A stretch of 36,442 nucleotides of DNA. Origin: a virus. The translations under genes and the position numbers were made by a program. The notes beneath the pieces are model-generated. The model saw only the letters and a list, made by a program, of their open reading frames with translations, made no database searches and was not told the origin of the DNA. The stretch lies in the IMG/VR virus record IMGVR_UViG_3300028563_000048, positions 1 to 36,442 of that record; one strand, given 5' to 3'. Shown piece after piece: positions 2,831-34,876 of this stretch. The number at the start of each line of letters is the position of its first letter. The first letter of the stretch is position 1.

Positions 2831-2877
2831 TTCTCTCTACTTCTTCTCTCTTCTTCGAAGAGAAGAAGTAGAGAGAA
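2831..2877. repeat. 19-bp perfect inverted repeat upstream of the first tRNA
   Basis: Arms 2831-2849 and 2859-2877 pair perfectly around a 9-base loop. One arm is almost pure pyrimidine and the other purine. It ends 8 bases before the first tRNA. There is no downstream T-tract, so it is not a classical terminator; an RNase III site or 5' boundary for tRNA processing is more likely. Confidence 0.65.
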
Positions 2878-2884
2878 AGAGATT

Positions 2885-2958
2885 GCCCGGTTAGTTCAAT
2901 GACAGAACACACCCTTTGTACGGCTGAGACGCGGGTTCGATTCCTGCACCGGGCTCCA
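2885..2958 (+). tRNA. tRNA-Thr(TGT)
   Basis: Acceptor GCCCGGT/ACCGGGC, D-stem GTTC/GAAC, anticodon loop TTTGTAC on stem CACCC/GGCTG (one C-C mismatch), T-arm GCGGG-TTCGATT-CCTGC, U73 and encoded CCA. First tRNA of the array. Confidence 0.85.
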
Positions 2959-3134
2959 CTATTCGGACGGCGACCGAATAATCAGCGGAACGAGACCAAA
3001 CCCGGTGTAGCGATACGGTGCGGGTGTAGTCCCCGAGATGAGTATGGTTAGGGGACAGGAGAGGGTTAAAACGAGGCGTCACCACCAGACACGCCTATCG
3101 TCCGTAAGCGGGGGTTCGCTGCCCGCACAGTTAA
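2959..3134 (+). other. structured inter-tRNA segment, unassigned RNA (core 3018-3128)
   Basis: This 176-nt gap holds no CDS and no normal tRNA. A 7-bp closing stem GTGCGGG (3018-3024)/CCCGCAC (3122-3128) encloses hairpins GTCCCC/GGGGAC (3029-3034, 3051-3056), AGGCGT/ACGCCT (3074-3079, 3091-3096) and a T-arm-like GGGGGTTCGCTGCCC. A separate hairpin ATTCGG/CCGAAT lies at 2961-2979. No CCA follows. It may be a degenerate or highly divergent tRNA, or a small RNA. Confidence 0.4.
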
Positions 3135-3208
3135 TCTCCCATAGTTCATTGGTAGAACACAACTTTGGTAAAGTTGAGAGGGTGGGTCGGAACCACCTGG
3201 GAGAACCA
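3135..3208 (+). tRNA. tRNA-Thr(GGT)
   Basis: Acceptor TCTCCCA/TGGGAGA, D-stem GTTC/GAAC, anticodon stem CAACT/AGTTG with loop TTGGTAA, T-arm GGTGG/CCACC with the non-canonical loop GTCGGAA, A73 and CCA. Confidence 0.9.
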
Positions 3209-3212
3209 ATAA

Positions 3213-3295
3213 GCCTCTGTGGTGGAACGCATACACACTTGTCTTAGAAACAAGCGCCGAAAGGCATGGGGGTTCAAATCCCTCCAGAGGTACCA
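3213..3295 (+). tRNA. tRNA-Leu(TAG)
   Basis: Acceptor GCCTCTG/CAGAGGT (first pair G-U), anticodon stem CTTGT/ACAAG with loop CTTAGAA, a long variable arm (GCC GAAA GGC) as expected for leucine, T-loop TTCAAAT, A73 and CCA. Confidence 0.9.
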
Positions 3296-3298
3296 AAT

Positions 3299-3375
3299 GC
3301 CTACATAGCCCAACGGCAGAGGCCATTTGCTCAAAACAAATCCCAGTCCAGGTTCAAATCCTGGTGTAGGCACCA
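3299..3375 (+). tRNA. tRNA-Leu(CAA) lacking the long variable arm
   Basis: Acceptor GCCTACA/TGTAGGC, anticodon stem ATTTG/CAAAT with loop CTCAAAA (anticodon CAA), T-arm CCAGG-TTCAAAT-CCTGG, A73 and CCA. The variable region is only 6 nt (CCCAGT), unlike normal class II leucine tRNAs, so the charging identity is uncertain. Confidence 0.85.
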
Positions 3376-3380
3376 AATAC

Positions 3381-3455
3381 GCTCCCTTAGCTTAGCGGCC
3401 AAAGCATCCGGCCTACACCCGGTGATCCCGTGTTCGAGTCACGGAGGGAGTACCA
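3381..3455 (+). tRNA. tRNA-Val(TAC) with C33
   Basis: Acceptor GCTCCCT/AGGGAGT, anticodon stem TCCGG/CCGGT (outer T-T mismatch) with loop CCTACAC, giving anticodon TAC after C33 instead of the universal U33. T-arm CCGTG-TTCGAGT-CACGG, A73, CCA. Confidence 0.8.
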
Positions 3456-3459
3456 ATAC

Positions 3460-3533
3460 GCTAGTGAACGGAAAAGTGACGGCGGCACCCGATAAGTGTC
3501 TTGCAGGAGGGGCAGTACCTCCCACTAGCACCA
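3460..3533 (+). tRNA. tRNA-Ile(GAT) with C33 and unusual T-loop
   Basis: Acceptor GCTAGTG/CACTAGC, anticodon stem GGCAC/GTGTC with loop CCGATAA (C33, anticodon GAT), T-stem GGAGG/CCTCC with loop GGCAGTA, A73, CCA. The D-arm is poorly paired. Confidence 0.75.
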
Positions 3534-3537
3534 ATAC

Positions 3538-3619
3538 GGACGGCTAACCTTAAAACCCAGCGTGGTGCGGGGCGGAACTTTTAACTCCGTGGTAAGAGGA
3601 TCGTAACCTCAGCCGTTCA
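3538..3619 (+). tRNA. degenerate tRNA-Lys(TTT)-like
   Basis: Acceptor GGACGGC/GCCGTTC pairs over 7 bp. Anticodon arm CGGAA-CTTTTAA-CTCCG has one mismatch and gives TTT. T-arm GAGG-ATCGTAA-CCTC has 4 bp. The D region is about 9 nt too long, and no CCA is encoded: the next tRNA starts 2 nt after base A73. It may need a CCA-adding enzyme or be decaying. Confidence 0.5.
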
Positions 3620-3620
3620 C

Positions 3621-3696
3621 GGACCCCTAGCATAATGGGTAGTGTGCTGGATTCTTAATCCATGCGGTCGGAGTTCAAATCTCCGGGGGTTCACCA
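3621..3696 (+). tRNA. tRNA-Lys(CTT)
   Basis: Acceptor GGACCCC/GGGGTTC, D-stem GCAT/GTGC, anticodon loop TTCTTAA on TGGA/TCCA, T-arm CGGAG-TTCAAAT-CTCCG, A73 and CCA. Confidence 0.85.
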
Positions 3697-3700
3697 ATAA

Positions 3701-3774
3701 GGCCCTGTAATTCAAAGGTAGAATGCCCGGTTGTCAACCGGAGAACGGCGGGTCAGTACCGCCCAGGGTCGCCA
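3701..3774 (+). tRNA. tRNA-Asp(GTC)
   Basis: Acceptor GGCCCTG/CAGGGTC, anticodon loop TTGTCAA on CCGG/CCGG, T-stem GGCGG/CCGCC with non-canonical loop GTCAGTA, G73 (expected for Asp) and CCA. Confidence 0.88.
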
Positions 3775-3788
3775 TTATGGAGAAAATA

Positions 3789-3944
3789 ATGCTGAAATGG
3801 ACTCTAAGCAAAGCCAAGAATGGCTATGTCCTGCATACACATACCGATAAAGACAGTTATGTTTTTATTTTTAGAACTTGGGATGAAGTCATCAAATTTC
3901 TGACTGACCATCCAACTTTAGGGGGTAAAGAGGGCGCAGAATAA
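3789..3944 (+). CDS. small hypothetical protein inside the tRNA array, 51 aa
   Basis: ATG 3789 is chosen because GGAG (3779-3782) lies 6 bases upstream; an upstream in-frame ATG at 3777 has no such site. The product (MLKWTLSKAKNGYVLHTHTD at the N-terminus, then YVFIFRTWDEVIKFLTDHP) looks like a compact alpha/beta domain. It resembles small phage proteins of unknown function. Its TAA ends at 3944 and the next tRNA begins at 3945, so the gene fills the gap between two tRNAs exactly. This abutment is part of a pattern seen for all five array ORFs. Confidence 0.65.
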   Translation: MLKWTLSKAKNGYVLHTHTDKDSYVFIFRTWDEVIKFLTDHPTLGGKEGAE

Positions 3945-4035
3945 CGGCGTTAGCTCAGGTGAGCGGCTGGGCCTTATAAACCCGGAGCACCAGATCGGTG
4001 TAGACGGGCGGGTTCAATACCCGCAACGCCGACCA
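3945..4035 (+). tRNA. tRNA-Ile(TAT)-like with long variable arm
   Basis: Acceptor CGGCGTT/AACGCCG, T-arm GCGGG-TTCAATA-CCCGC, A73, CCA. Anticodon loop CTTATAA on TGGG/CCCG (closing C-A mismatch) gives TAT. A long variable arm (CACC/GGTG) and a D-hairpin with 4-nt loop are atypical for isoleucine, so amino-acid identity is uncertain. Confidence 0.75.
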
Positions 4036-4047
4036 TTAGAGGATACC

Positions 4048-4389
4048 ATGCGTGTCATTGCCACAATGGATGGAAAGACTGTTCCAGCTACATTCTCATT
4101 GGTTGTCCATGGTGCTCCGCATAGACGGATGCACATACGGATGATCCAGCAGTACCGGGATGAGATCCGTAGGGCCTGTGATGCAGCAGGGATTATAACA
4201 CCGATAGACACAACAGTTGATTTGGCTGTTTTGTTTGTTGATCCAACAAGTCCGGATTATGACAATCTCTTGGCTGCTCTGTACCAAGCCATGGATGGAG
4301 CGACCTTGAAAAAGCCCGGAATCCTTGTTGATGATAGCCTTATAGGAACGATCCGGAGGCTAGCGAAATACAGTTCTAAGGATGCGTAG
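4048..4389 (+). CDS. RusA-like Holliday-junction resolvase, 113 aa, in the tRNA array
   Basis: ATG 4048 follows AGAGGA. The protein carries the RusA core: DLAVLFVDPTSPDYDNLLAA (Asp70, Asp72, Asn73) and GILVDDSLIG (Asp95, Asp96). In Escherichia coli RusA three such aspartates bind the metal and cut Holliday junctions as a dimer; length (about 120 aa) also fits. The N-terminal half is more divergent than in the second RusA gene of this window (8378-8749). The stop TAG at 4387-4389 is formed by bases 8-10 of the next tRNA-Arg, so gene and tRNA overlap by 10 nt. It may act in recombination of the array, but that is inference. Confidence 0.7.
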   Translation: MRVIATMDGKTVPATFSLVVHGAPHRRMHIRMIQQYRDEIRRACDAAGIITPIDTTVDLAVLFVDPTSPDYDNLLAALYQAMDGATLKKPGILVDDSLIGTIRRLAKYSSKDA

Positions 4390-4457
4390 CTTAACTGAAC
4401 AAAGCGCCGACCTCCGAAGTCGGGAGATTCCAGGTTTGAGTCCTGGCGCATTCACCA
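4380..4457 (+). tRNA. tRNA-Arg(CCG)
   Basis: Acceptor GGATGCG/CGCATTC, D-stem GCTT/AAGC, anticodon stem CCGAC/GTCGG with loop CTCCGAA, T-arm CCAGG-TTTGAGT-CCTGG, A73 and CCA. Its first 10 bases are also the end of the upstream RusA-like ORF. Confidence 0.9.
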
Positions 4458-4546
4458 AATGGCATAGAGAGGGGCCTAACCGCCATTGCCGATGCCAGAT
4501 TACAGCCGAGTTGGTATTACAACTCTCTTGCTCGGCCAGCCAATAT
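4458..4546 (+). other. unassigned structured segment between tRNAs
   Basis: This 89-nt gap ends in GCCAATA, the same 3' context as the real tRNAs. GAGTTG/CAACTC (4508-4513, 4520-4525) and GCCGAG/CTCGGC (4505-4510, 4531-4536) are alternative hairpins. TGGC near its 5' end can pair with GCCA near its 3' end. I could not fit a convincing anticodon arm. It may be a tRNA relic. Confidence 0.35.
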
Positions 4547-4636
4547 GGAAGGGTAACTTGGGCGGCCCCAAGCCTCGTCTTGAAAACGAGTGGAAGGCGA
4601 AAGCCTTTGGAGATCGACACTGCCACCCTTCCTCCA
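4547..4636 (+). tRNA. tRNA-Ser(TGA)
   Basis: Acceptor GGAAGGG/CCCTTCC, anticodon stem CTCGT/ACGAG with loop CTTGAAA, long variable arm AAGGC-GAAA-GCCTT, T-arm with a bulge and loop ATCGACA, U73 and CCA. Confidence 0.88.
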
Positions 4637-4658
4637 CATTCAGTTGTTACAAGACTTA

Positions 4659-4735
4659 CGCGGGATGGAGCAGGAGTAGCTCGCGTGGTTCATACCCACG
4701 AGGACGATGGATGCGACCGCCATCTCCCGCAACCA
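4659..4735 (+). tRNA. initiator tRNA-fMet(CAT)
   Basis: CGCGGGA pairs with TCCCGCA except for the first position, giving the C1-A72 mismatch that marks initiator tRNAs. D-stem GAGC/GCTC contains the initiator A11-U24 pair. Anticodon stem CGTGG/CCACG with loop TTCATAC. It ends ACCA and is 77 nt, like Escherichia coli tRNA-fMet. The T-loop appears enlarged (GATGG/CCATC). Confidence 0.9.
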
Positions 4736-4739
4736 ATAC

Positions 4740-4811
4740 AGCGGCAGTTCCGAAGAACAGGAGATCCTCATAAGGTCTCACAGGTGGGGTTAGCACCCAC
4801 AGCCGCTACCA
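4740..4811 (+). tRNA. tRNA-Met(CAT), elongator or Ile2 type
   Basis: Acceptor AGCGGCA/AGCCGCT (innermost A-A mismatch), D-hairpin GTTC-CGAA-GAAC with only a 4-nt loop, anticodon stem AGATC/GGTCT with loop CTCATAA, T-stem GTGGG/CCCAC with loop GTTAGCA, A73, CCA. Could read AUG, or AUA if C34 is lysidine-modified. Confidence 0.82.
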
Positions 4812-4812
4812 T

Positions 4813-4898
4813 GCCTCAGTAGGCTGCTAAGGACGCAGCGCCGTCTGTAAAACGGATGCCTTCGGGCTGGCCAGGATCGTTCCCTGGGTGAGGCACCA
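4813..4898 (+). tRNA. tRNA-Tyr(GTA)
   Basis: Acceptor GCCTCA/TGAGGC, anticodon loop CTGTAAA on CCGT/ACGG, long variable arm GCC-TTCG-GGC as expected for tyrosine, T-stem CCAGG/CCTGG with loop ATCGTTC, A73, CCA. It starts one base after the previous CCA. Confidence 0.88.
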
Positions 4899-4901
4899 AT
4901 T

Positions 4902-4975
4902 GCGGCCATAGCTCAATGGAAGAGCTTCTGCTTGCCAAGCAGAGGACGCCGGATCGTAACCGGCTGGCCGCTCCA
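4902..4975 (+). tRNA. tRNA-Gly(GCC)
   Basis: Acceptor GCGGCCA/TGGCCGC, anticodon stem TCTGC/GCAGA with loop TTGCCAA, T-stem GCCGG/CCGGC with loop ATCGTAA, U73 (expected for Gly) and CCA. Confidence 0.92.
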
Positions 4976-5144
4976 ATTATGCTCCGTCAGGGTTCGACTC
5001 CCGGACGACACCTAAGAGAAAACCTGATGAATTCTAGAACAACGTCAGGCTAGTATCGGATGACGCTAACTGGTGACATAGAGATTATGGGCAGCGGTGC
5101 CTTATGCTCTGTGGGCGGAATCGTCAGCCGCCGAGCGCCAATAC
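4976..5144 (+). other. unassigned multi-hairpin RNA-like segment, tRNA-like ends
   Basis: No CDS. GCTCCGT (4981-4987) can pair with GCCGAGC (5130-5136), followed by G73-like base and CCA at 5138-5140, as if one 160-nt tRNA-like gene. Inside are a T-arm-like hairpin (4985-5007, loop TTCGACT), CCTGATG/CGTCAGG (5023-5029, 5043-5049), CATAGAG/CTCTGTG (5077-5083, 5107-5113) and GGCGG/CCGCC (5114-5118, 5128-5132). A tRNA split by an insertion, or a small tmRNA-like RNA, are options; neither is shown. Confidence 0.4.
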
Positions 5145-5220
5145 GCCTACTAAGCTAATCTGGTGAAAGCGCCTGTCTGAAGAGCAGGAGAGCCTGGATC
5201 GAAACCAGGAGTGGGCACCA
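5145..5220 (+). tRNA. tRNA-Phe(GAA)
   Basis: Acceptor GCCTACT/AGTGGGC, anticodon stem CCTGT/GCAGG with loop CTGAAGA, T-stem CCTGG/CCAGG with loop ATCGAAA, A73 and CCA. Confidence 0.92.
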
Positions 5221-5235
5221 ATTCAGGGAATAGCG

Positions 5236-5718
5236 ATGAGCATAGCTAGCGTACAGCAGCGCAGGTTGGCTAAAAGAAAAGAACTTCTCGGTATGAGTTT
5301 CGGTACGGCCAGGGCTAGATTAGAGCGCGCTCTACTGTACGAGATGGCTATAAAACTTGGCATGGATTCCTGTTTTAGATGTTCTAAAAAGATTGAATCT
5401 GTGGCCGAGTTTTCGATTGAACATAAGATCGGCTGGCAATTGTCCTCTGATCCAGTCCAGACCTACTTCGATATGGCAAACATCGCATTCTCTCACAGAA
5501 CCTGTAACTCTAATGCTGCCCAAAAACGCATACTCCCTCACGGAGTAGCGAAAAGCAGGAACTGCAAATGCGCTCCTTGCCTAGAGGCAAGAAATAAATA
5601 CAACGCCGATTGGATGGATAATTGGCGCAAGAATGGTAAGGACAAAACCCGAAAGAATTATCGGGGACCGCGCTGGGGCGCAATTATCCCTTGCAAGGAT
5701 GATGGGCTCGGATCGTAA
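5236..5718 (+). CDS. HNH homing-type endonuclease whose 3' end overlaps tRNA-Ala
   Basis: ATG 5236 follows CAGGGA. Residues 46-49 (CFRC) and the segments FSIEHKIGW (His63) and ANIAFSHRTCNS (His87, Cys90, Asn91) form an HNH zinc-finger nuclease core; a second cysteine cluster CKCAPC is at 110-115. Such free-standing nucleases cut DNA at a target site and spread by homing. The last 18 codons are read from inside tRNA-Ala (5663-5734) and the TAA stop is the TAA of the tRNA T-loop, a 56-nt overlap. The gene therefore appears to sit upstream of a tRNA that supplies its stop. Catalytic activity is inferred from the motif only. Confidence 0.8.
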   Translation: MSIASVQQRRLAKRKELLGMSFGTARARLERALLYEMAIKLGMDSCFRCSKKIESVAEFSIEHKIGWQLSSDPVQTYFDMANIAFSHRTCNSNAAQKRILPHGVAKSRNCKCAPCLEARNKYNADWMDNWRKNGKDKTRKNYRGPRWGAIIPCKDDGLGS

Positions 5719-5734
5719 CCGAGGGTCTCCACCA
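5663..5734 (+). tRNA. tRNA-Ala(TGC)
   Basis: Acceptor GGGGACC/GGTCTCC contains the alanine identity pair G3-U70. Anticodon stem TATCC/GGATG with loop CTTGCAA, T-stem CTCGG/CCGAG with loop ATCGTAA, A73, CCA. The D-hairpin GCGC-TGGG-GCGC has a 4-nt loop. It overlaps the 3' end of the HNH gene by 56 nt. Confidence 0.88.
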
Positions 5735-5738
5735 ATAT

Positions 5739-5816
5739 TCCAGTTGAGTCGCCTTGGTGGCGACGGAGTGCTGTTAACACTCGCCGAGCTTGGTTCGAAT
5801 CCAAGAACTGGAGCCA
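5739..5816 (+). tRNA. tRNA-Asn(GTT)
   Basis: Acceptor TCCAGTT/AACTGGA, anticodon stem GAGTG/CACTC with loop CTGTTAA, T-arm CTTGG-TTCGAAT-CCAAG, G73 (expected for Asn) and CCA. Confidence 0.93.
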
Positions 5817-5820
5817 ATAA

Positions 5821-5894
5821 GCAGCTATCGTCTAATGGCAGGACACTACCCTCTCAAGGTGGTAACGCGGGGTCAGTACCCGCTAGCTGCTCCA
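5821..5894 (+). tRNA. tRNA-Glu(CTC)
   Basis: Acceptor GCAGCTA/TAGCTGC, D-stem GTC/GAC, anticodon stem CTACC/GGTGG with loop CTCTCAA, T-stem GCGGG/CCCGC with loop GTCAGTA, U73 and CCA. Confidence 0.88.
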
Positions 5895-5898
5895 ATAC

Positions 5899-5981
5899 CG
5901 GCATGTAACCGAGCGGTGCTACGAACGCCGTATCCGTAACTGGAGTTGCAAATGGGAGTTCAAATCTCCCCATGCCGTCCA
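5899..5981 (+). tRNA. tRNA-Arg(ACG) with collapsed D-arm
   Basis: Acceptor CGGCATG/CATGCCG, T-arm GGGAG-TTCAAAT-CTCCC, U73, CCA. The only good anticodon arm is CGGTG-CTACGAA-CGCCG (anticodon ACG, same loop as Escherichia coli tRNA-Arg). That leaves only 8 nt for the D-arm and 23 nt for the variable region, an unusual architecture. Confidence 0.72.
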
Positions 5982-5985
5982 ATAT

Positions 5986-6062
5986 CTGCGTGTAGGAAAG
6001 CCTGGAAATCCGCCTGCCTTGGAAGCAGGAGACCGCTGGATCGAAGCCAGCCACGCAGACCA
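5986..6062 (+). tRNA. tRNA-Pro(TGG)
   Basis: Acceptor CTGCGTG/CACGCAG, anticodon stem CCTGC/GCAGG with loop CTTGGAA, T-stem GCTGG/CCAGC with loop ATCGAAG, A73 and CCA. Confidence 0.92.
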
Positions 6063-6066
6063 ATAC

Positions 6067-6141
6067 GCCCCTTTAGTCCAGCGGAACGGACGACCGGCTC
6101 TGACCCGGTAGACGATTGTTCGACTCAATCAAGGGGTGCCA
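6067..6141 (+). tRNA. tRNA-Gln(CTG)
   Basis: Acceptor GCCCCTT/AAGGGGT, anticodon stem ACCGG/CCGGT with loop CTCTGAC, T-arm GATTG-TTCGACT-CAATC, G73 (expected for Gln) and CCA. Confidence 0.92.
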
Positions 6142-6145
6142 ATAT

Positions 6146-6219
6146 GAGGATGTGGCCGAATGACTAGGCGGTGGATTGCAAACCCACCCAAGCAGGTTAA
6201 AATCCTGCCATCCTCTCCA
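6146..6219 (+). tRNA. tRNA-Cys(GCA)
   Basis: Acceptor GAGGATG/CATCCTC, anticodon loop TTGCAAA on GTGGA/CCCAC (closing A-C), T-arm GCAGG-TTAAAAT-CCTGC, U73 (expected for Cys) and CCA. The next tRNA starts directly at 6220. Confidence 0.92.
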
Positions 6220-6294
6220 GGACCCGTATTTAACTGGATAAAGCCGTGCCTTCTAAGCACCGGGATCGAGGTTCGAGTCCTCGCGGGTTCACCA
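6220..6294 (+). tRNA. tRNA-Arg(TCT)
   Basis: Acceptor GGACCCG/CGGGTTC, D-stem TTTA/TAAA, anticodon loop CTTCTAA on GTGC/GCAC, T-arm CGAGG-TTCGAGT-CCTCG, A73 and CCA. Confidence 0.92.
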
Positions 6295-6298
6295 ATAA

Positions 6299-6374
6299 CT
6301 TTCCGTAGCACAATGGATAGTGCCTTCGCCTCCTAAGCGATTGTATCGAAGTTCGAATCTTCGCGGAAAGACCA
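6299..6374 (+). tRNA. tRNA-Arg(CCT)
   Basis: Acceptor CTTTCCG/CGGAAAG, anticodon loop CTCCTAA on TCGC/GCGA, T-arm CGAAG-TTCGAAT-CTTCG, A73 and CCA. Confidence 0.92.
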
Positions 6375-6390
6375 ATTACGGAGGATGACA

Positions 6391-6567
6391 ATGGAGCCAT
6401 GGAATCGTTGTGATGTGTGCGGAAAATTCATCTCTATGGATGATTTCGATCACGGCGCGGTTCGTGAGCTTGTCTATCCAGACTCTGAATTCACGCGAGA
6501 GACGTTCGAAACTCTTTGTAAAGAACATGGAAAGTTAAGTAGGCAAGTGCCTACCGCTCCCTGCTAA
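6391..6567 (+). CDS. small CCCH zinc-binding protein ending inside tRNA-Ser
   Basis: ATG 6391 is chosen because GGAGG (6380-6384) lies 6 bases upstream; an in-frame ATG at 6385 touches that site. The 58-aa product has Cys7-x2-Cys10 (CDVCGKF) and Cys43-x2-His46 (LCKEHGK), a plausible zinc site. Similar minimal zinc proteins are common in phages, role unknown. The last 12 codons lie within tRNA-Ser(GCT), and the TAA stop is formed by the last base of the anticodon and the two A residues 3' of it, a 39-nt overlap. It may be a cassette that borrows its stop from the tRNA. Confidence 0.6.
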   Translation: MEPWNRCDVCGKFISMDDFDHGAVRELVYPDSEFTRETFETLCKEHGKLSRQVPTAPC

Positions 6568-6615
6568 GGAGACGGCACCGTAAGGTGTGGGGATCAAGAC
6601 CTCAACTTTCCGCCA
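6529..6615 (+). tRNA. tRNA-Ser(GCT)
   Basis: Acceptor GGAAAGT/ACTTTCC, anticodon loop CTGCTAA on CTCC/GGAG, long variable arm GCACC-GTAA-GGTGT, T-stem TGGGG/CCTCA with loop ATCAAGA, G73 (expected for Ser) and CCA. Overlaps the upstream ORF by 39 nt. Confidence 0.9.
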
Positions 6616-6631
6616 TTTTCAGGAGAATTTT

Positions 6632-6814
6632 ATGGCAAGATTCAAGGTGGTTTTACAGGAAACTTCCTTCTATATCTTGGAATTAGACGCTGATGACGAT
6701 GCTAAGGCCCGGAAGGAAGCACAGTCTTATGTGGCGAGATTCCCAGGCATCGCCCGGAAAAATGCTCGCGGGCTCGTTCTTTGGCATAGCGAAGAAATTG
6801 CGGACTTAGCGTAG
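6632..6814 (+). CDS. small hypothetical protein ending inside tRNA-Gly, 60 aa
   Basis: ATG 6632 follows AGGAG at 6621-6625. The product (MARFKVVLQETSFYILELDA at the N-terminus, then DDDAKARKEAQSYVARFPG) fits a beta-strand followed by an amphipathic helix. I do not recognise a family. The last four codons and the TAG stop (6812-6814) lie inside tRNA-Gly(TCC), overlapping it by 15 nt. It fills the gap between tRNA-Ser and tRNA-Gly completely, like the other array ORFs. Confidence 0.65.
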   Translation: MARFKVVLQETSFYILELDADDDAKARKEAQSYVARFPGIARKNARGLVLWHSEEIADLA

Positions 6815-6873
6815 AGGCAACGTGCTGGTCTTCCAAACCAGAGTCCGGAGTTCGAACCTCCGAGTCCGCACCA
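6800..6873 (+). tRNA. tRNA-Gly(TCC)
   Basis: Acceptor GCGGACT/AGTCCGC, anticodon stem CTGGT/ACCAG with loop CTTCCAA, T-arm CGGAG-TTCGAAC-CTCCG, A73 (glycine tRNAs usually have U73) and CCA. Confidence 0.9.
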
Positions 6874-6877
6874 ATTT

Positions 6878-6952
6878 GGGGCCTTAGTTTACCGGCTAGA
6901 ATCTGGCGCTTTCATCGCCAAGGAGCGGGATCGACACCCGCAGGCCCTCCCA
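6878..6952 (+). tRNA. tRNA-Glu(TTC)
   Basis: Acceptor GGGGCCT/AGGCCCT (first pair G-U), anticodon stem TGGCG/CGCCA with loop CTTTCAT, T-stem GCGGG/CCCGC with loop ATCGACA, C73 and CCA. Confidence 0.88.
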
Positions 6953-6954
6953 AT

Positions 6955-7023
6955 AGCCCAAGTCTGGGACAACCAGAGCCTTTGAAGCTCTGAAGCTCAG
7001 TCCGATTCTGAGGTGGGCTGCCA
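6955..7023 (+). tRNA. tRNA-Gln(TTG), 69 nt with minimal D-loop
   Basis: Acceptor AGCCCA/TGGGCT, D-hairpin GTC-TGG-GAC (3-nt loop), anticodon stem AGAGC/GCTCT with loop CTTTGAA, T-stem CTCAG/CTGAG with loop TCCGATT, G73 (expected for Gln) and CCA. Unusually short. Confidence 0.85.
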
Positions 7024-7027
7024 ATAC

Positions 7028-7104
7028 GCTGGGTATGCTCGATGGCAATGAGCGGTCGGACTGTGAATCCGGACGATAGAGTTCGAATCTCTAACCCAGT
7101 TCCA
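7028..7104 (+). tRNA. tRNA-His(GTG)
   Basis: Acceptor GCTGGGT/ACCCAGT, anticodon stem TCGGA/TCCGG with loop CTGTGAA, T-arm TAGAG-TTCGAAT-CTCTA, U73, CCA. No encoded G-1 opposite C73, unlike most bacterial His tRNAs; alphaproteobacterial ones are also atypical. Confidence 0.9.
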
Positions 7105-7180
7105 GGGAGTGTAGTTTAACTGGCCAAAACCTCGGTCTCCAAAACCGAAGATTCCCGTTCAAATCGGGCCACTCTCGCCA
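7105..7180 (+). tRNA. tRNA-Trp(CCA)
   Basis: Acceptor GGGAGTG/CACTCTC, anticodon stem TCGGT/ACCGA with loop CTCCAAA, T-arm CCCG-TTCAAAT-CGGG, G73 (expected for Trp) and CCA. It begins directly after the previous CCA and ends the array, 12 bases before a convergent gene end. Confidence 0.92.
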
Positions 7181-8377: not shown

Positions 8378-8749
8378 TCAACAAGCAGTTACGATAAGTC
8401 TAGCCATACCATTAGGAGTACCTTCATCCGTGCTCCACGCTATGGATAGTTCTTGGCACAAATGATCATTCTCAATGATCCCTGCTGATTGGAGAAAATC
8501 AGAAGCCGCTTTTTCAGCGTTCCCAAGATCCCTCAGGCGCTTATCAGGGGGATTCAGGATGATTCTGAGGGTGTATGGGCCTTTGATCGATTTAACCTTG
8601 CTGGCGGGCCTCTGTACCATCCAATGCTGACCCGCCAAGACGATCCAAGCCACATACTTCTCGCTCTTGTAGACTCGCCCCCTCCCCGATCTCCAGACTT
8701 GGTTCACGGAAGGCGGGTACGGGAGGCTTAAGGTTATGCTGGGTTTCAA
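8378..8749 (-). CDS. rusA: RusA-family Holliday-junction resolvase
   Basis: The 123-aa product shows the RusA pattern from start to end: PYPPSVNQVWRSGRGRVYKS near the N-terminus, then GPYTLRIILNPPDKRLRDLG with Asp69 and Asp74, then AASDFLQSAGIIENDHLCQE with Asp95. RusA dimers resolve Holliday junctions made during phage recombination. The second catalytic Asp of Escherichia coli RusA is Gly here (RDLGN), a variant also seen in Mu-like and Rhizobiales members. ATG 8749 lies inside the upstream DnaA-C-like gene, giving a 158-nt overlap. It is the better conserved of two RusA-like proteins in the window. Confidence 0.85.
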   Translation of the reverse strand: MKPSITLSLPYPPSVNQVWRSGRGRVYKSEKYVAWIVLAGQHWMVQRPASKVKSIKGPYTLRIILNPPDKRLRDLGNAEKAASDFLQSAGIIENDHLCQELSIAWSTDEGTPNGMARLIVTAC

Positions 8750-9233: not shown

Positions 9234-9448
9234 TTTGCTTGGCCTTGATAAAGAGCCTTATTCCGCAGCGCGGCCTCGGTGATGCAGGAGGGCTTACTGC
9301 AAACCCCCGTTCCTGAGGATGAGTCTTTCATAAGAGATTGAGGTCCCCACTCAAATCCCGCGAATGGTTCATGGCATATAGGGCACGGCATCCAAAAATA
9401 GCCACCGAACCACGCCATAAATCTGGCAAGCCATCTTGGCTGAATCAT
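9230..9448 (-). CDS. small zinc-ribbon protein, 72 aa
   Basis: The product begins MIQPRWLARFMAWFGGYFWM and has a CPICHEPFAGFEWG motif (CxxC) plus a second pair in GVCSKPSCIT, together a likely zinc ribbon. The stop overlaps the DnaA-like start in ATGA form. Small proteins with CPICxxxFxGFEWG are familiar from phages of Rhizobiales, function unknown. Translational coupling on both sides places it firmly in the leftward regulatory cluster. Confidence 0.65.
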   Translation of the reverse strand: MIQPRWLARFMAWFGGYFWMPCPICHEPFAGFEWGPQSLMKDSSSGTGVCSKPSCITEAALRNKALYQGQAK

Positions 9449-9900
9449 CGTCCATCCTTCCGGTAATAGATGTTCTGATGGAATGCACAGAAGGAAGCCT
9501 CTAGAGACTTCGGATTCGAGCAGAATAAGGCCAAAGTGTGTCCCTTTGAGTTGACCTCATATCCCTCTACGGATCGGCAGGTCGAGGAATTGGCCTTCAT
9601 GAATGGGATTCCTTCCCCCTGGGGAGCTTCCGGTGGAGATAGAACAATCTGTGGCTTGAATTCCGGCATCACTCTCTCCCTCTTGGCTCGGATGCGGAGT
9701 GGGTTCTGAGATGGGGCCTGCTTATGGGTGGGTAGCCCCAATCGGTGGCGTTTGCCGATAATTGAGTTCCTCGTGGAGCCTGGAATCTGACTAGAAATCT
9801 GTGCTGCTGACAGCCCCTCTTCCCAAAGCCTCTTGAGCAGTTCGACGGTAGCTGGAGTCCAAACCTTATCGGTCTTTAACGCCATACCAACTTCTAGCAT
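9445..9900 (-). CDS. GcrA-family cell-cycle transcription regulator
   Basis: The N-terminal part is the GcrA helix-turn-helix: WTPATVELLKRLWEEGLSAA then QIPGSTRNSIIGKRHRLGLP. A cysteine-containing tail (TCRSVEG, FCSNPKS, SFCAFHQ) resembles the C-terminal region of GcrA that contacts sigma70. GcrA controls cell-cycle genes in Caulobacter and relatives together with CcrM methylation (GANTC). A phage copy could redirect host transcription or timing. Start 9900 has GAGG close upstream; 9909 and 9885 are alternatives. The gene overlaps the Cro-like gene by about 35 nt. Confidence 0.8.
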   Translation of the reverse strand: MLEVGMALKTDKVWTPATVELLKRLWEEGLSAAQISSQIPGSTRNSIIGKRHRLGLPTHKQAPSQNPLRIRAKRERVMPEFKPQIVLSPPEAPQGEGIPFMKANSSTCRSVEGYEVNSKGHTLALFCSNPKSLEASFCAFHQNIYYRKDGR

Positions 9901-10063
9901 TGACCTCACCTTTGGTTAATTTCTCGATCTTGAGAAGGGATTCTGGACGTGGAATCCGGATTCGTTGACGCCACTTCCGACAAGTGTGAACAGAGAACCC
10001 GCCCAGCTTGGCGAACTTGGCTGTGCTGACTTTGTTTTTCAATAGAAAGCGTTCCAGTGTCAT
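9866..10063 (-). CDS. Cro/CI-like HTH repressor, 65 aa
   Basis: ATG 10063 is chosen, giving MTLERFLLKNKVSTAKFAKL and then GGFSVHTCRKWRQRIRIPRP. The order of short helices with a turn and a basic recognition helix (VHTCRKWRQRIR), then PRPESLLKIEKLTKGEV, is typical of lambda Cro-type dimers. It is first in the leftward cluster and faces the rightward operon across a 79-nt region containing an inverted-repeat operator. It probably represses the rightward promoter and perhaps itself. There is no C-terminal protease domain, so it is Cro-like rather than a full CI. Confidence 0.7.
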   Translation of the reverse strand: MTLERFLLKNKVSTAKFAKLGGFSVHTCRKWRQRIRIPRPESLLKIEKLTKGEVNARSWYGVKDR

Positions 10064-15627: not shown

Positions 15628-16287
15628 ATGAAGTGCGACCGCAGATTTTACGTCTATGTTGGTGAGCACCCAGTTTCTGGGCAAACAGTATATGTTGGTA
15701 AGGGATCGAATAGGCGTGTTCTTGTCCATAATTACGACCTTTCCAGGAGAAAGCACCGAAACAAGCGTCTACAGAAAATCTATGACGAGTTCGGCCCACT
15801 CCCTTGGAGTAAGGTTCGTGAGAACCTAAGTGAACAAGAGGCGTTTGAAACTGAGATCGCTCTGATCGCCTACTTTGGACGAGATAGGCTGTGCAACTAT
15901 TCTGAAGGTGGAACAGGGCCGAGTGGCCATATTCATTCCGCTGAGACTAAAGCTAAGATAAGCGCAAGAAACAAAGGCTTAAAACGCACTAAGGAACAGC
16001 GAGAAATAATGAGTCTTCTTAGGCGCGGCACCAAGATGGCAGCGGAGGCCAGAGCCAAGATGAGCGCTGCCGGTAAAGGAAGGAAATTCTCAGAAGAACA
16101 CCGCGCTAAGATAGGCGCTGCTCACAAAGGCAGGAAGTTCTCTGAGGAATCGTTGGCCAAAATGAGTCGAGCCAGAAAGGGTCGGAAAATCCCCGACGAA
16201 ACTAGAGCCAGAATGAGTTCGGCTAAGCTAGAGTTATACGCCAAAAGAAGGGGAGAGAATCAAGATGGTCTCCCATTTTTCGGATGA
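15628..16287 (+). CDS. GIY-YIG homing endonuclease with NUMOD3 repeats, 219 aa
   Basis: The N-terminus has the GIY-YIG catalytic domain: FYVYVGEHPVSGQTVYVGKG with the YVY and YVG elements, then a putative catalytic Glu in SEQEAFETEIALIAYFGRDR. The C-terminal half repeats a NUMOD3 DNA-binding motif (SAETKAKISARNKGLK, then KFSEEHRAKIGAAHKGRKFS and relatives). This is the architecture of I-TevI-like free-standing homing nucleases. It makes a site-specific cut to copy itself into related genomes. It overlaps the next gene by 4 nt (ATGA) and probably is a late arrival in the operon. Confidence 0.85.
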   Translation: MKCDRRFYVYVGEHPVSGQTVYVGKGSNRRVLVHNYDLSRRKHRNKRLQKIYDEFGPLPWSKVRENLSEQEAFETEIALIAYFGRDRLCNYSEGGTGPSGHIHSAETKAKISARNKGLKRTKEQREIMSLLRRGTKMAAEARAKMSAAGKGRKFSEEHRAKIGAAHKGRKFSEESLAKMSRARKGRKIPDETRARMSSAKLELYAKRRGENQDGLPFFG

Positions 16288-32854: not shown

Positions 32855-33678
32855 GGTGAACCTCCGGTCGAAGGCGTGCCGATCTGGGCAACATCAAAAG
32901 TGACTTGAGCAACGGAGACATAATTCAATCCGTCACCCAGGAAGGCTACGCGATGGAATTCCTCGCTGCCTCCGGTGCAGGTTCCTGAGATTGTCTCTCC
33001 TGCTGTACCAGCAGTGGTCCCGCTCGATATCGTGGTCCACGCTCCATAGACCGGAGAATCGACTGGAGATGATTGGACGAGATACGAGGTTGGATTGTTT
33101 CCCAGGAACGACCGGTCATTCGGCGCTGTGATGGTATAGCTCGTCAATGAGTGTCTGATAACCGGAGGCAGTAGGCTCGATGGAGCGCCCAGCATTGCTG
33201 CGTTCGCCCCAGACCAGTTGATTCCCACGTAGTTCGAATAGCTTGAATTCGACAGCGCGTTGCAGGCTGACTGCCACGATGGTTTGTATGCGTTGCCATC
33301 GAAGGCTGATCTCAAGCCGCCCCCGCCAAGGAGATTCCCGATACGTCCACCCACTGTCTGGGAGATCGGAGTTACGGTATTGGTGATAGCGCTGTAGCCT
33401 ACAGCCGACATGGGATTATTGTCGCCAACACTGTTTTCCGGTCTCGCATTGGAGATCGGAATCGGATCGGGCGGGATGATGATAATACGAAGCTGTTCCT
33501 GCGGAATGTCCAGGCAATCTTCGCAGACCAGAATCTGGATGTTCTGGAGTTTCGTTCCTCTCCACTGATACTGCCAGGATAGATCGACATGGTTGTAACG
33601 GAAGCCGCAGCGATCACAGATCGCAAGCGCCTGCGGATTGGTTACGCTGATATTAGCCCGGCCCTGTGGACGGCTCAT
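32851..33678 (-). CDS. zinc-knuckle virion protein, 275 aa
   Basis: The N-terminal part has two CxxC pairs: AICDRCGFRYNHVDLSWQYQ, then ILVCEDCLDIPQEQLRIIII, and the run PPDPIPISNARPE. This N-terminus is frequent in podophages next to P22 gp4-like proteins. The C-terminal 90 residues are a beta-sandwich-like region (FHRVAFLGDGLNYVSVAQVT). Together they suggest a structural protein of the tail or neck. The upstream HNH gene overlaps it by 4 nt (TCAT on the plus strand). Confidence 0.7.
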   Translation of the reverse strand: MSRPQGRANISVTNPQALAICDRCGFRYNHVDLSWQYQWRGTKLQNIQILVCEDCLDIPQEQLRIIIIPPDPIPISNARPENSVGDNNPMSAVGYSAITNTVTPISQTVGGRIGNLLGGGGLRSAFDGNAYKPSWQSACNALSNSSYSNYVGINWSGANAAMLGAPSSLLPPVIRHSLTSYTITAPNDRSFLGNNPTSYLVQSSPVDSPVYGAWTTISSGTTAGTAGETISGTCTGGSEEFHRVAFLGDGLNYVSVAQVTFDVAQIGTPSTGGSP

Positions 33679-34175
33679 TCGATTCTCGCATACTGGCCAA
33701 AGGTATCATGCGCGGCCTGGGCATAGGCCGAACAGGCTACATCGAACTTATCATAATAACCTAAGAACCTTTCTTTCCCTTTATGCTTTAGGGATACGTG
33801 CCATTTACCTCGTCTTTTATCCAATCTAACGCCCTTATGACCGCTGGTGTTATTTGGCTGCCGTTTACAGTTAGCGTGGTTTTGCGAATTATCGGCCTCG
33901 CGCAAGTTTCTGATTCTATTGTTGCCTGGGTCACAATCGATGTGGTCGATCTGATCTTTCGGCCATTCTCCGTATACATACAACCACGCAAGGCGATGAG
34001 CCTTATACATATCGTAACCAATGCGAATGGTTATATGGCCCCTCTTCTTTTTTGATCCGGCAATCGAGCCAATGGGAAATCTTGGGTGATGCGTTAAACG
34101 CAAAAACACTCCGGTTTCCGGATCATAGCTCAGAAGCTGCTTTAGCTCGATCTGCGTTAGGTTATTCTTACTCAT
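33675..34175 (-). CDS. HNH endonuclease with AP2 DNA-binding domain, 166 aa
   Basis: Start ATG 34175 overlaps the gp4-like stop as ATGA; an upstream in-frame start lies inside that gene. The N-terminal and middle parts form an HNH_3-type domain (AHRLAWLYVYGEWPKDQIDH, then IDCDPGNNRIRNLREADNSQ). The C-terminal part is an AP2 domain (SGHKGVRLDKRRGKWHVSLK, then ERFLGYYDKFDVACSAYAQA) that binds DNA. This is a free-standing homing endonuclease inserted between two structural genes with short overlaps on both sides. It is likely an intergenic mobile gene, not needed for the virion. Confidence 0.88.
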   Translation of the reverse strand: MSKNNLTQIELKQLLSYDPETGVFLRLTHHPRFPIGSIAGSKKKRGHITIRIGYDMYKAHRLAWLYVYGEWPKDQIDHIDCDPGNNRIRNLREADNSQNHANCKRQPNNTSGHKGVRLDKRRGKWHVSLKHKGKERFLGYYDKFDVACSAYAQAAHDTFGQYARIE

Positions 34176-34876
34176 CGGACGAAGTAGCCCCCAAGGCCAG
34201 GGGTGATGTTCAGCGCTACGTTTTCGACGTTCTGGGTAGCCGCGATTGCCCAAGCTTCGTCCGCGTCAGCCTTCCTGATTTGCTCAAGCTGAGGCTGGTA
34301 GATTCTGGCTAGGCGGTGAGCCAGTCCCGCCACCAAGGCATCGAGCCAGAGATACGGGACTTCGGCGTTTACCCCATTGGGTAATGTCGCGTCCTGAATC
34401 TGCCGAACCCGGTAGTAGTTGATCGTATAGGGGCCGTTTCCATCCGGAGTCAGATAGAGGGTGATGGTTGGTGAGATGATGCGGTTGAACCAGAAGGTTG
34501 TCGGCTTTCCCTGGGAAGCCTTGTTCGCAATAGCTGCGTACTCCGTCTGACTCAATGGCCAGATCAGCGTATCGATCCTGGAGGCCCCCGACCCAACGCT
34601 GATGTAGGCGTTGGTGATCATCACCGTATCTGACGGTAGGGAATAGGTTGCGTTACCTTGGGTGATAGGCAGCGCCTGCAAATCTACGGTCCAGAGGTTC
34701 GGCTGCATATTGGACATCTTCGCCAGCAGAAGATTTAGCTCCATAACTGCTGAAGTCAGGTGGGTAACCAGAAGCTCTGTCGGGCGGATAGCGATCCGCT
34801 GATAGGCATTCATGATGATTTCGCCGCTCGTTGGGGCGAAGTTCGTGGTTCCGGAATATACCTGGGGGCCAAACAT
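34172..34876 (-). CDS. P22 gp4-like head-tail completion protein, 234 aa
   Basis: The protein has AYQRIAIRPTELLVTHLTSA, ELNLLLAKMSNMQPNLWTVD, then PSDTVMITNAYISVGSGASR and FWFNRIISPTITLYLTPDGN. Its later part (NAEVPYLWLDALVAGLAHRL) resembles P22 gp4-like head-completion or tail-accessory proteins. Such proteins join the portal and the tail. It is followed by HNH, zinc-knuckle, adaptor and gp10-like genes in the usual podovirus order. Match is by pattern only. Confidence 0.7.
   Translation of the reverse strand: MFGPQVYSGTTNFAPTSGEIIMNAYQRIAIRPTELLVTHLTSAVMELNLLLAKMSNMQPNLWTVDLQALPITQGNATYSLPSDTVMITNAYISVGSGASRIDTLIWPLSQTEYAAIANKASQGKPTTFWFNRIISPTITLYLTPDGNGPYTINYYRVRQIQDATLPNGVNAEVPYLWLDALVAGLAHRLARIYQPQLEQIRKADADEAWAIAATQNVENVALNITPGLGGYFVR

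Follow-up and report, generated by a model that had tools for sequence, protein, structure and literature searches.

A probable HNH homing endonuclease gene in a phage tRNA array, with a reading frame that runs into tRNA-Ala

The open reading frame at positions 5236–5718 (+ strand) of the window, the 36,442-nt virus record IMGVR_UViG_3300028563_000048 analysed at its full length, is probably a free-standing HNH endonuclease gene. It belongs, on this reading, to a family whose members colonise the tRNA arrays of phages, and it has probably lost its original stop codon and reads through into the neighbouring tRNA-Ala gene. By its sequence and those of its relatives, it looks like a selfish gene spreading through tRNA arrays. 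The frame opens with ATG and encodes 160 amino acids. A tRNA-Ala(UGC) with a non-canonical layout and a G3.U70 pair is called by ARAGORN at 5663–5734 (+ strand), and the two genes have 56 nt in common (5663–5718), made up of two bases of codon 143, codons 144–160 and the stop codon. This TAA (5716–5718, + strand) supplies the final three bases of the T-loop, ATCGTAA, and closes it. An earlier note on this DNA had described the same arrangement, with the last 18 codons (residues 143–160) inside tRNA-Ala, 56 nt shared and the stop codon in the T-loop, and our analysis confirms it. The note had further taken the overlap to be a meaningful fusion, with the tRNA-array junction that the gene occupies as a possible target. 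Our data do not support this interpretation. What stays constant across the family is the upstream tRNA's 3' end (in the window, that of tRNA-Phe); the tRNA-encoded part of the protein is neither conserved nor structured. Adjacency of the HNH gene to a tRNA exceeds chance; long overlap in itself does not. The tRNA-Ala overlap is probably not the functional point of the gene, and taken alone it is of modest interest.

The window protein matches PHROG 23251 (E 3.8e-23). Its match to Pfam HNH (E 0.0038, 17.8 bits) lies under a cut-off of 21.4 bits that is one library's criterion and not a biochemical one; 35 of the 47 aligned members match this model at E ≤ 0.01. In the 47-sequence alignment, H63, N82 and H87 occur in order and are invariant together with C46, C49 and C90, and the catalytic positions (C46/C49, E62-H63, N82 and H87) are kept in relatives. 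Residues 1–90 of an AlphaFold2 model have pLDDT >90. As to the beta-beta-alpha metal fold of HNH nucleases, the top structural matches of this model are HNH nucleases, at Z of only 4–6, and the neighbours near the top include Cas9 HNH, PtuB and T4 endonuclease VII. A search of solved structures with the protein sequence returned no significant match. Judged by its profile matches, the protein is an HNH and not a GIY-YIG nuclease. Two other window genes resemble homing endonucleases by eye: 15628–16287 encodes a GIY-YIG protein with NUMOD-like repeats, and 33675–34253 (− strand) an HNH+AP2-like protein among tail genes.

The tRNA-Ala is atypical. It lacks the U8/A9 linker between acceptor and D stems, its D-loop is 4 nt and its D/anticodon linker 3 nt, and the Rfam tRNA model makes no call at E ≤ 1. 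The absent Rfam call, the missing U8 and the short D-loop favour the view that there is no tRNA gene here and that the ORF merely overlaps a chance fold. We consider this extremely improbable in light of L047 (G001, 76 kb), which among phages that have this array is the closest relative. L047 carries an Ala(TGC) tRNA at the corresponding array position (about 4916–4987, reverse strand) with an identical 72-nt layout, the same anticodon and the same G3.U70. The two sequences are identical at 39/72 positions, yet 21/21 pairs form in both, and the ten pairs that changed did so on both sides, with none broken. This shared layout and these compensatory changes identify the window tRNA-Ala, by sequence evidence, as a genuine, unusual tRNA gene. 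T-loops without U54 (ATCGTAA, ATCGAAA, GTCAGTA) are found in several tRNAs of the window array (2885–7180) and of L047, and some show an apparent A54-U58 swap of the T54-A58 pair. Just upstream of the array there is a long near-perfect palindrome (window 2831–2877; also on the L047 reverse strand) that gives spurious Rfam miRNA matches and is perhaps a terminator or processing signal.

Alignments show where the window gene departs from its family. Residues 1–135 (5236–5640, + strand) align with full-length relatives, which terminate at the equivalent of residue ~135 ('..RYxxTGK*'), ahead of any tRNA. The remaining 25 codons and stop (5641–5718, + strand) form a C-terminal extension that consists of seven spacer codons followed by the 18 residues within tRNA-Ala. 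Residues 141–160 have pLDDT <50 in the AlphaFold2 model, and 25 open codons lie ahead at 38% of the positions in the window tRNA array. Since relatives end near residue 135, the tail has low pLDDT and open runs of this length are common, one lost stop codon is enough to explain the overlap. The original stop would have stood near residue 136. With this stop lost, the frame would continue to the T-loop TAA, since tRNA-Ala lacks the U8-A9 that often gives a stop at positions 8–10 and no stop would be encountered there.

Other reading frames in these arrays also end inside tRNAs. In the window, the stop codon of a RusA-like ORF occupies positions 8–10 of tRNA-Arg and that of a 75-aa ORF positions 13–15 of tRNA-Gly. 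Where ORFs enter a tRNA in the collected loci, they stop most often at position 8 (12 cases), and 223 of the 500 tRNAs in these loci have a stop triplet at positions 8–10. Five HNH relatives overlap the next tRNA by 1–17 nt, and the window overlap is the extreme case. More generally, upstream ORFs often use tRNA positions 8–10 (U8-A9-R10) or 13–15 as their stop, as at window 4387–4389 and 6812–6814 and in L007.

It is conceivable that the stop codon is missing only because this one metagenome contig was missequenced or misassembled, and that the true protein has ~135 residues and no tRNA overlap. The family does end exactly at about residue 135, and only one copy is known (among the viral contigs, no second one matches a 25-mer from the tRNA-Ala 3' end). 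However, the sequence carries no direct sign of error, and ORF ends that overlap tRNAs recur both in the window array (stops at positions 8 and 13) and in relatives. We therefore regard an error as unlikely. It is highly improbable that the tail is functional, that is, a C-terminus captured from the tRNA gene that helps the protein to recognise this gene. While the frame does stay open across the tRNA up to the T-loop, relatives do without the tail, and both its low pLDDT and the frequency of 25-codon open runs argue against a function. The AlphaFold2 model of the window protein gave no support for a hidden function of the tRNA-encoded tail. Under our preferred explanation, a lost stop codon, the protein probably tolerates its tail and does not need it.

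Relatives were found by tblastn in tRNA arrays of Pakpunavirus, Otagovirus, Vequintavirinae, Ounavirinae and Vibrio phages, and 80 further HNH loci were taken from IMG/VR. A scan of GTDB genomes found relatives on only two MAG contigs. A tRNA lies within 60 nt on one side in 62 of 94 non-redundant members, compared to a mean of 27.9 and a maximum of 36 in 300 trials of random placement in the same loci. No tRNA is called within 60 nt of the other 32, FoX3 among them. Upstream tRNAs vary in identity (Ser, Trp, Lys, Gln, Asn, Met, Gly, Pro, Arg and others). At the 5' junction, a leader resembling CTTCTGAAATC comes after the CC at the 3' end of the tRNA, and start codons are mostly 26–48 nt past the tRNA. 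One relative, in ABPH49 (L011, 2489–2894), has its HNH gene split by a frameshift and is apparently a decaying copy. The GenBank tRNA strands are opposite to those from ARAGORN in NDO71 (L007) and Y1-MI (L054); the strand given in these records is probably wrong.

The upstream tRNA's 3' end is often found a second time past the HNH stop codon. This is the case for 14 of the 44 members with a called upstream tRNA, where mismatched pairs give an expectation of 0.7. The longest tRNA 3' repeat in the family, 19 nt from T-loop position 57 to C75, directly follows the stop codon in Bitten, phiPsa300, Y1-MI and L058; the remaining repeats begin at tRNA positions 58–66. In nine members the repeat starts at position 57–60 with the stop codon at the repeat boundary, and in L057 the stop codon falls within the displaced tRNA-Gln 3' piece. 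The observed repeat would fit equally well with target-site duplication by transposition or with insertion in the T-loop by an element that carries the tRNA 3' end.

A second family feature is a hairpin close to the start codon, present in 43 of 70 leaders compared to 8.25 in shuffles (unselected count). It has the form GAC-NNN-loop-N'N'N'-A-GTC with a bulged A, incorporates the Shine-Dalgarno sequence and lies about 20 nt before the HNH start (L006, L008, L009, L050, L054, L057–L109 and others). Among sequences chosen for this shape, five of the six pairs are altered on both sides. The hairpin is possibly an element that sequesters the ribosome binding site, or an operator for self-repression.

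Comparison of closely related phages reveals occupied and empty alleles. In PT07, two copies of the tRNA 3' end flank the HNH gene; in PaP1/PsCh, where the gene is absent, there is one. The same pattern distinguishes phiPsa300 from phiPsa374 and Roomu-2 from Amme-3, so that array alleles without the HNH gene, a point raised in the earlier note, do exist for relatives in three phage pairs. The backbones of phiPsa300 and phiPsa374 are about 98–100% identical, whereas a tract of about 1.2 kb around the HNH gene is divergent, with 75–93% identity over the ~300 nt that precede the gene and the several hundred nt that follow it. The tRNA-Tyr next to the HNH gene in Roomu-2 differs from that of Amme-3. 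A different HNH gene in KoPa-4 (L018, 3566–3940) ends 15 nt inside tRNA-Gly, and this tRNA-Gly allele differs from that of the near-identical Roomu-2 (L008), which lacks that HNH gene. Low-identity flanks are expected if the HNH gene came in with foreign flanks. Because these arrays have divergent tracts at other places too, the flank divergence is support and not proof.

The occupied and empty alleles, the insertion point, the repeats, the preference for tRNAs and the divergent tract were all observed in relatives. The proposal that such genes spread tRNA-array alleles agrees with the phiPsa300/phiPsa374 comparison, in which flanking tRNA alleles change along with the gene. As for the suggestion of a homing endonuclease, it fits an HNH family that occupies tRNA arrays and has gene-less alleles, but not tRNA-Ala as the target. 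We also considered that the HNH protein is a resident phage nuclease (in packaging, defence or counter-defence, for example) that sits in the array by chance. HNH folds serve many such roles, and the structural neighbours named above lend this some credit, but presence is patchy among near-identical phages, insertions are at tRNA ends with repeats, and the tRNA hosts are many and different. This makes a resident nuclease very unlikely.

For a mobile HNH gene, the insertion site in the window would be the 3' end of tRNA-Phe(gaa) (5145–5220, + strand; ARAGORN, Rfam 52.4 bits; 3' CCA at 5218–5220), as suggested by analogy with the family and by one diverged relative. The leader ATTCAGGGAATAGCG (5221–5235, + strand) contains an SD-like AGGGA and resembles the TTCAGAAATCAG / TTGAGAAAATAG leaders of relatives; the start codon is 16 nt past tRNA-Phe. 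The next tRNA in the array after tRNA-Ala is tRNA-Asn(gtt) (5739–5816, + strand). The tRNA-Phe genes of the window and L047 are 89% identical and the similarity stops at the CCA. L047 then has an unrelated ORF of ~66 aa (− strand), tRNA-Ala and tRNA-Asn, with no HNH gene. A gene-less allele of the window array is thus found in part: L047 has no HNH gene at this place, but it is a diverged relative, and with another insert there it does not offer a clean empty site. No HNH gene turned up in twelve contigs of related phages, most of them fragments; an empty result of this kind is weak evidence when taken alone. No tRNA-Phe 3' repeat was detected past the window HNH stop codon, and a hairpin scan of the window leader did not find the family hairpin. 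With repeat and hairpin both missing, we read the window copy as a probable derived, eroded member of the family. Between residue 135 and tRNA-Ala, a candidate remnant of a tRNA-Phe 3' copy aligned with a score of 10, which seven other array tRNAs matched or beat; it was therefore rejected.

The RusA-like ORF (4048–4389, + strand; stop TAG) had been proposed as a recombination partner two tRNAs away from the HNH gene. It is a weak match (PHROG 140, E 0.14), lies about 850 nt upstream and is separated from the HNH gene by at least three called tRNAs (Arg, Gly and Phe). Since the RusA-like gene is at the same place in L047, which has no HNH gene, a link between the two is not supported, and we excluded it from the unit. 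A clearer RusA is encoded at 8381–8749 (− strand; NCBIfam E 2e-8, below the cut-off) and a GcrA homologue at 9448–9909 (− strand; E 2.5e-17, below the cut-off). The presence of RusA and a GcrA homologue hints at an alphaproteobacterial host.

These observations suggest how the family might spread. In arrays without the HNH gene, the enzyme would cut a tRNA gene in its T-arm or 3' part; with an occupied array as template, repair of the break would then bring the HNH gene, together with adjacent tRNA DNA, into the cut genome. The 3'-end repeat, which may arise from a staggered cut or be carried by the insert, would keep the interrupted tRNA complete. If mRNA and tRNA share a transcript, RNase P would separate the HNH frame from its stop codon when it cuts at the tRNA 5' end, and tRNA production would then limit endonuclease synthesis. 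Homing, cleavage and a T-arm target are what we infer from sequence comparison for the family, as is the scheme as a whole for the window copy. We advance a fuller version tentatively, as a possibility that we hold at somewhat below even. In this version, the family recognises the T-arm, a feature of every tRNA gene, and can hence enter nearly any tRNA of an array; insertion is in the T-loop or 3' part, with a copied 3' end rebuilding the tRNA; the hairpin throttles translation; and in members such as the window copy a tRNA holds the stop codon, whereby maturation of this tRNA cuts the gene's own mRNA.

The reason for large, patchy phage tRNA arrays is debated. If the scheme is true, array turnover would have, in addition to codon usage and the evasion of tRNA-cutting defences, a concrete and testable driver: a selfish nuclease with tRNA genes as its target, whose spread moves neighbouring tRNA alleles. 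The Pseudomonas phage pairs PT07/PaP1, phiPsa300/phiPsa374 and Roomu-2/Amme-3 make homing testable with laboratory phages.

Some features of the family are known from other elements. Integrative elements with attachment sites at tRNA 3' ends leave the 3' end repeated on both sides and the tRNA whole; the HNH insert differs in that it has no integrase and is a single nuclease gene of about 430 bp. A possible parallel is the Allomyces mitochondrial atp6 endonuclease element, in which an endonuclease gene is inserted with a duplicated 3' part of the host gene; there the host gene is protein-coding and the setting is a fungal mitochondrion. In the freely accessible literature, we found no description of tRNA 3'-end repeats around HNH genes, nor of the exact T-loop-to-C75 repeat or the covarying start-codon hairpin.

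That nucleases spread tRNAs in phage tRNA clusters is an existing idea. As described in the accessible parts of the sources, T4/T6 SegB is a GIY-YIG free-standing homing endonuclease of the tRNA region (PMC13096335, PMC2988022) that, like the HNH family, sits between tRNA genes; it cuts inside tRNA genes, at the motif RAWTSGAAC (PMC13096335), and spreads tRNA alleles. On our reading, this motif is the reverse complement of the T-loop sequence GTTCSAWTY, where the repeats of the HNH family begin. Microhomology of the segB 3' end with a tRNA is also reported there. Besides its GIY-YIG class, SegB differs in that those parts of the sources describe no tRNA 3'-end repeat and no reading frame that overlaps a tRNA. 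HNH genes in mycobacteriophage tRNA clusters have already been proposed to spread tRNA genes (PMC6409571). These genes and the T4 Mob class are free-standing HNH homing endonucleases that likewise stand alone between phage genes; the window family is set apart from other phage HNH genes as a separate subfamily (PHROG 23251) with its insertion point at tRNA 3' ends, its repeats and its start-codon hairpin.
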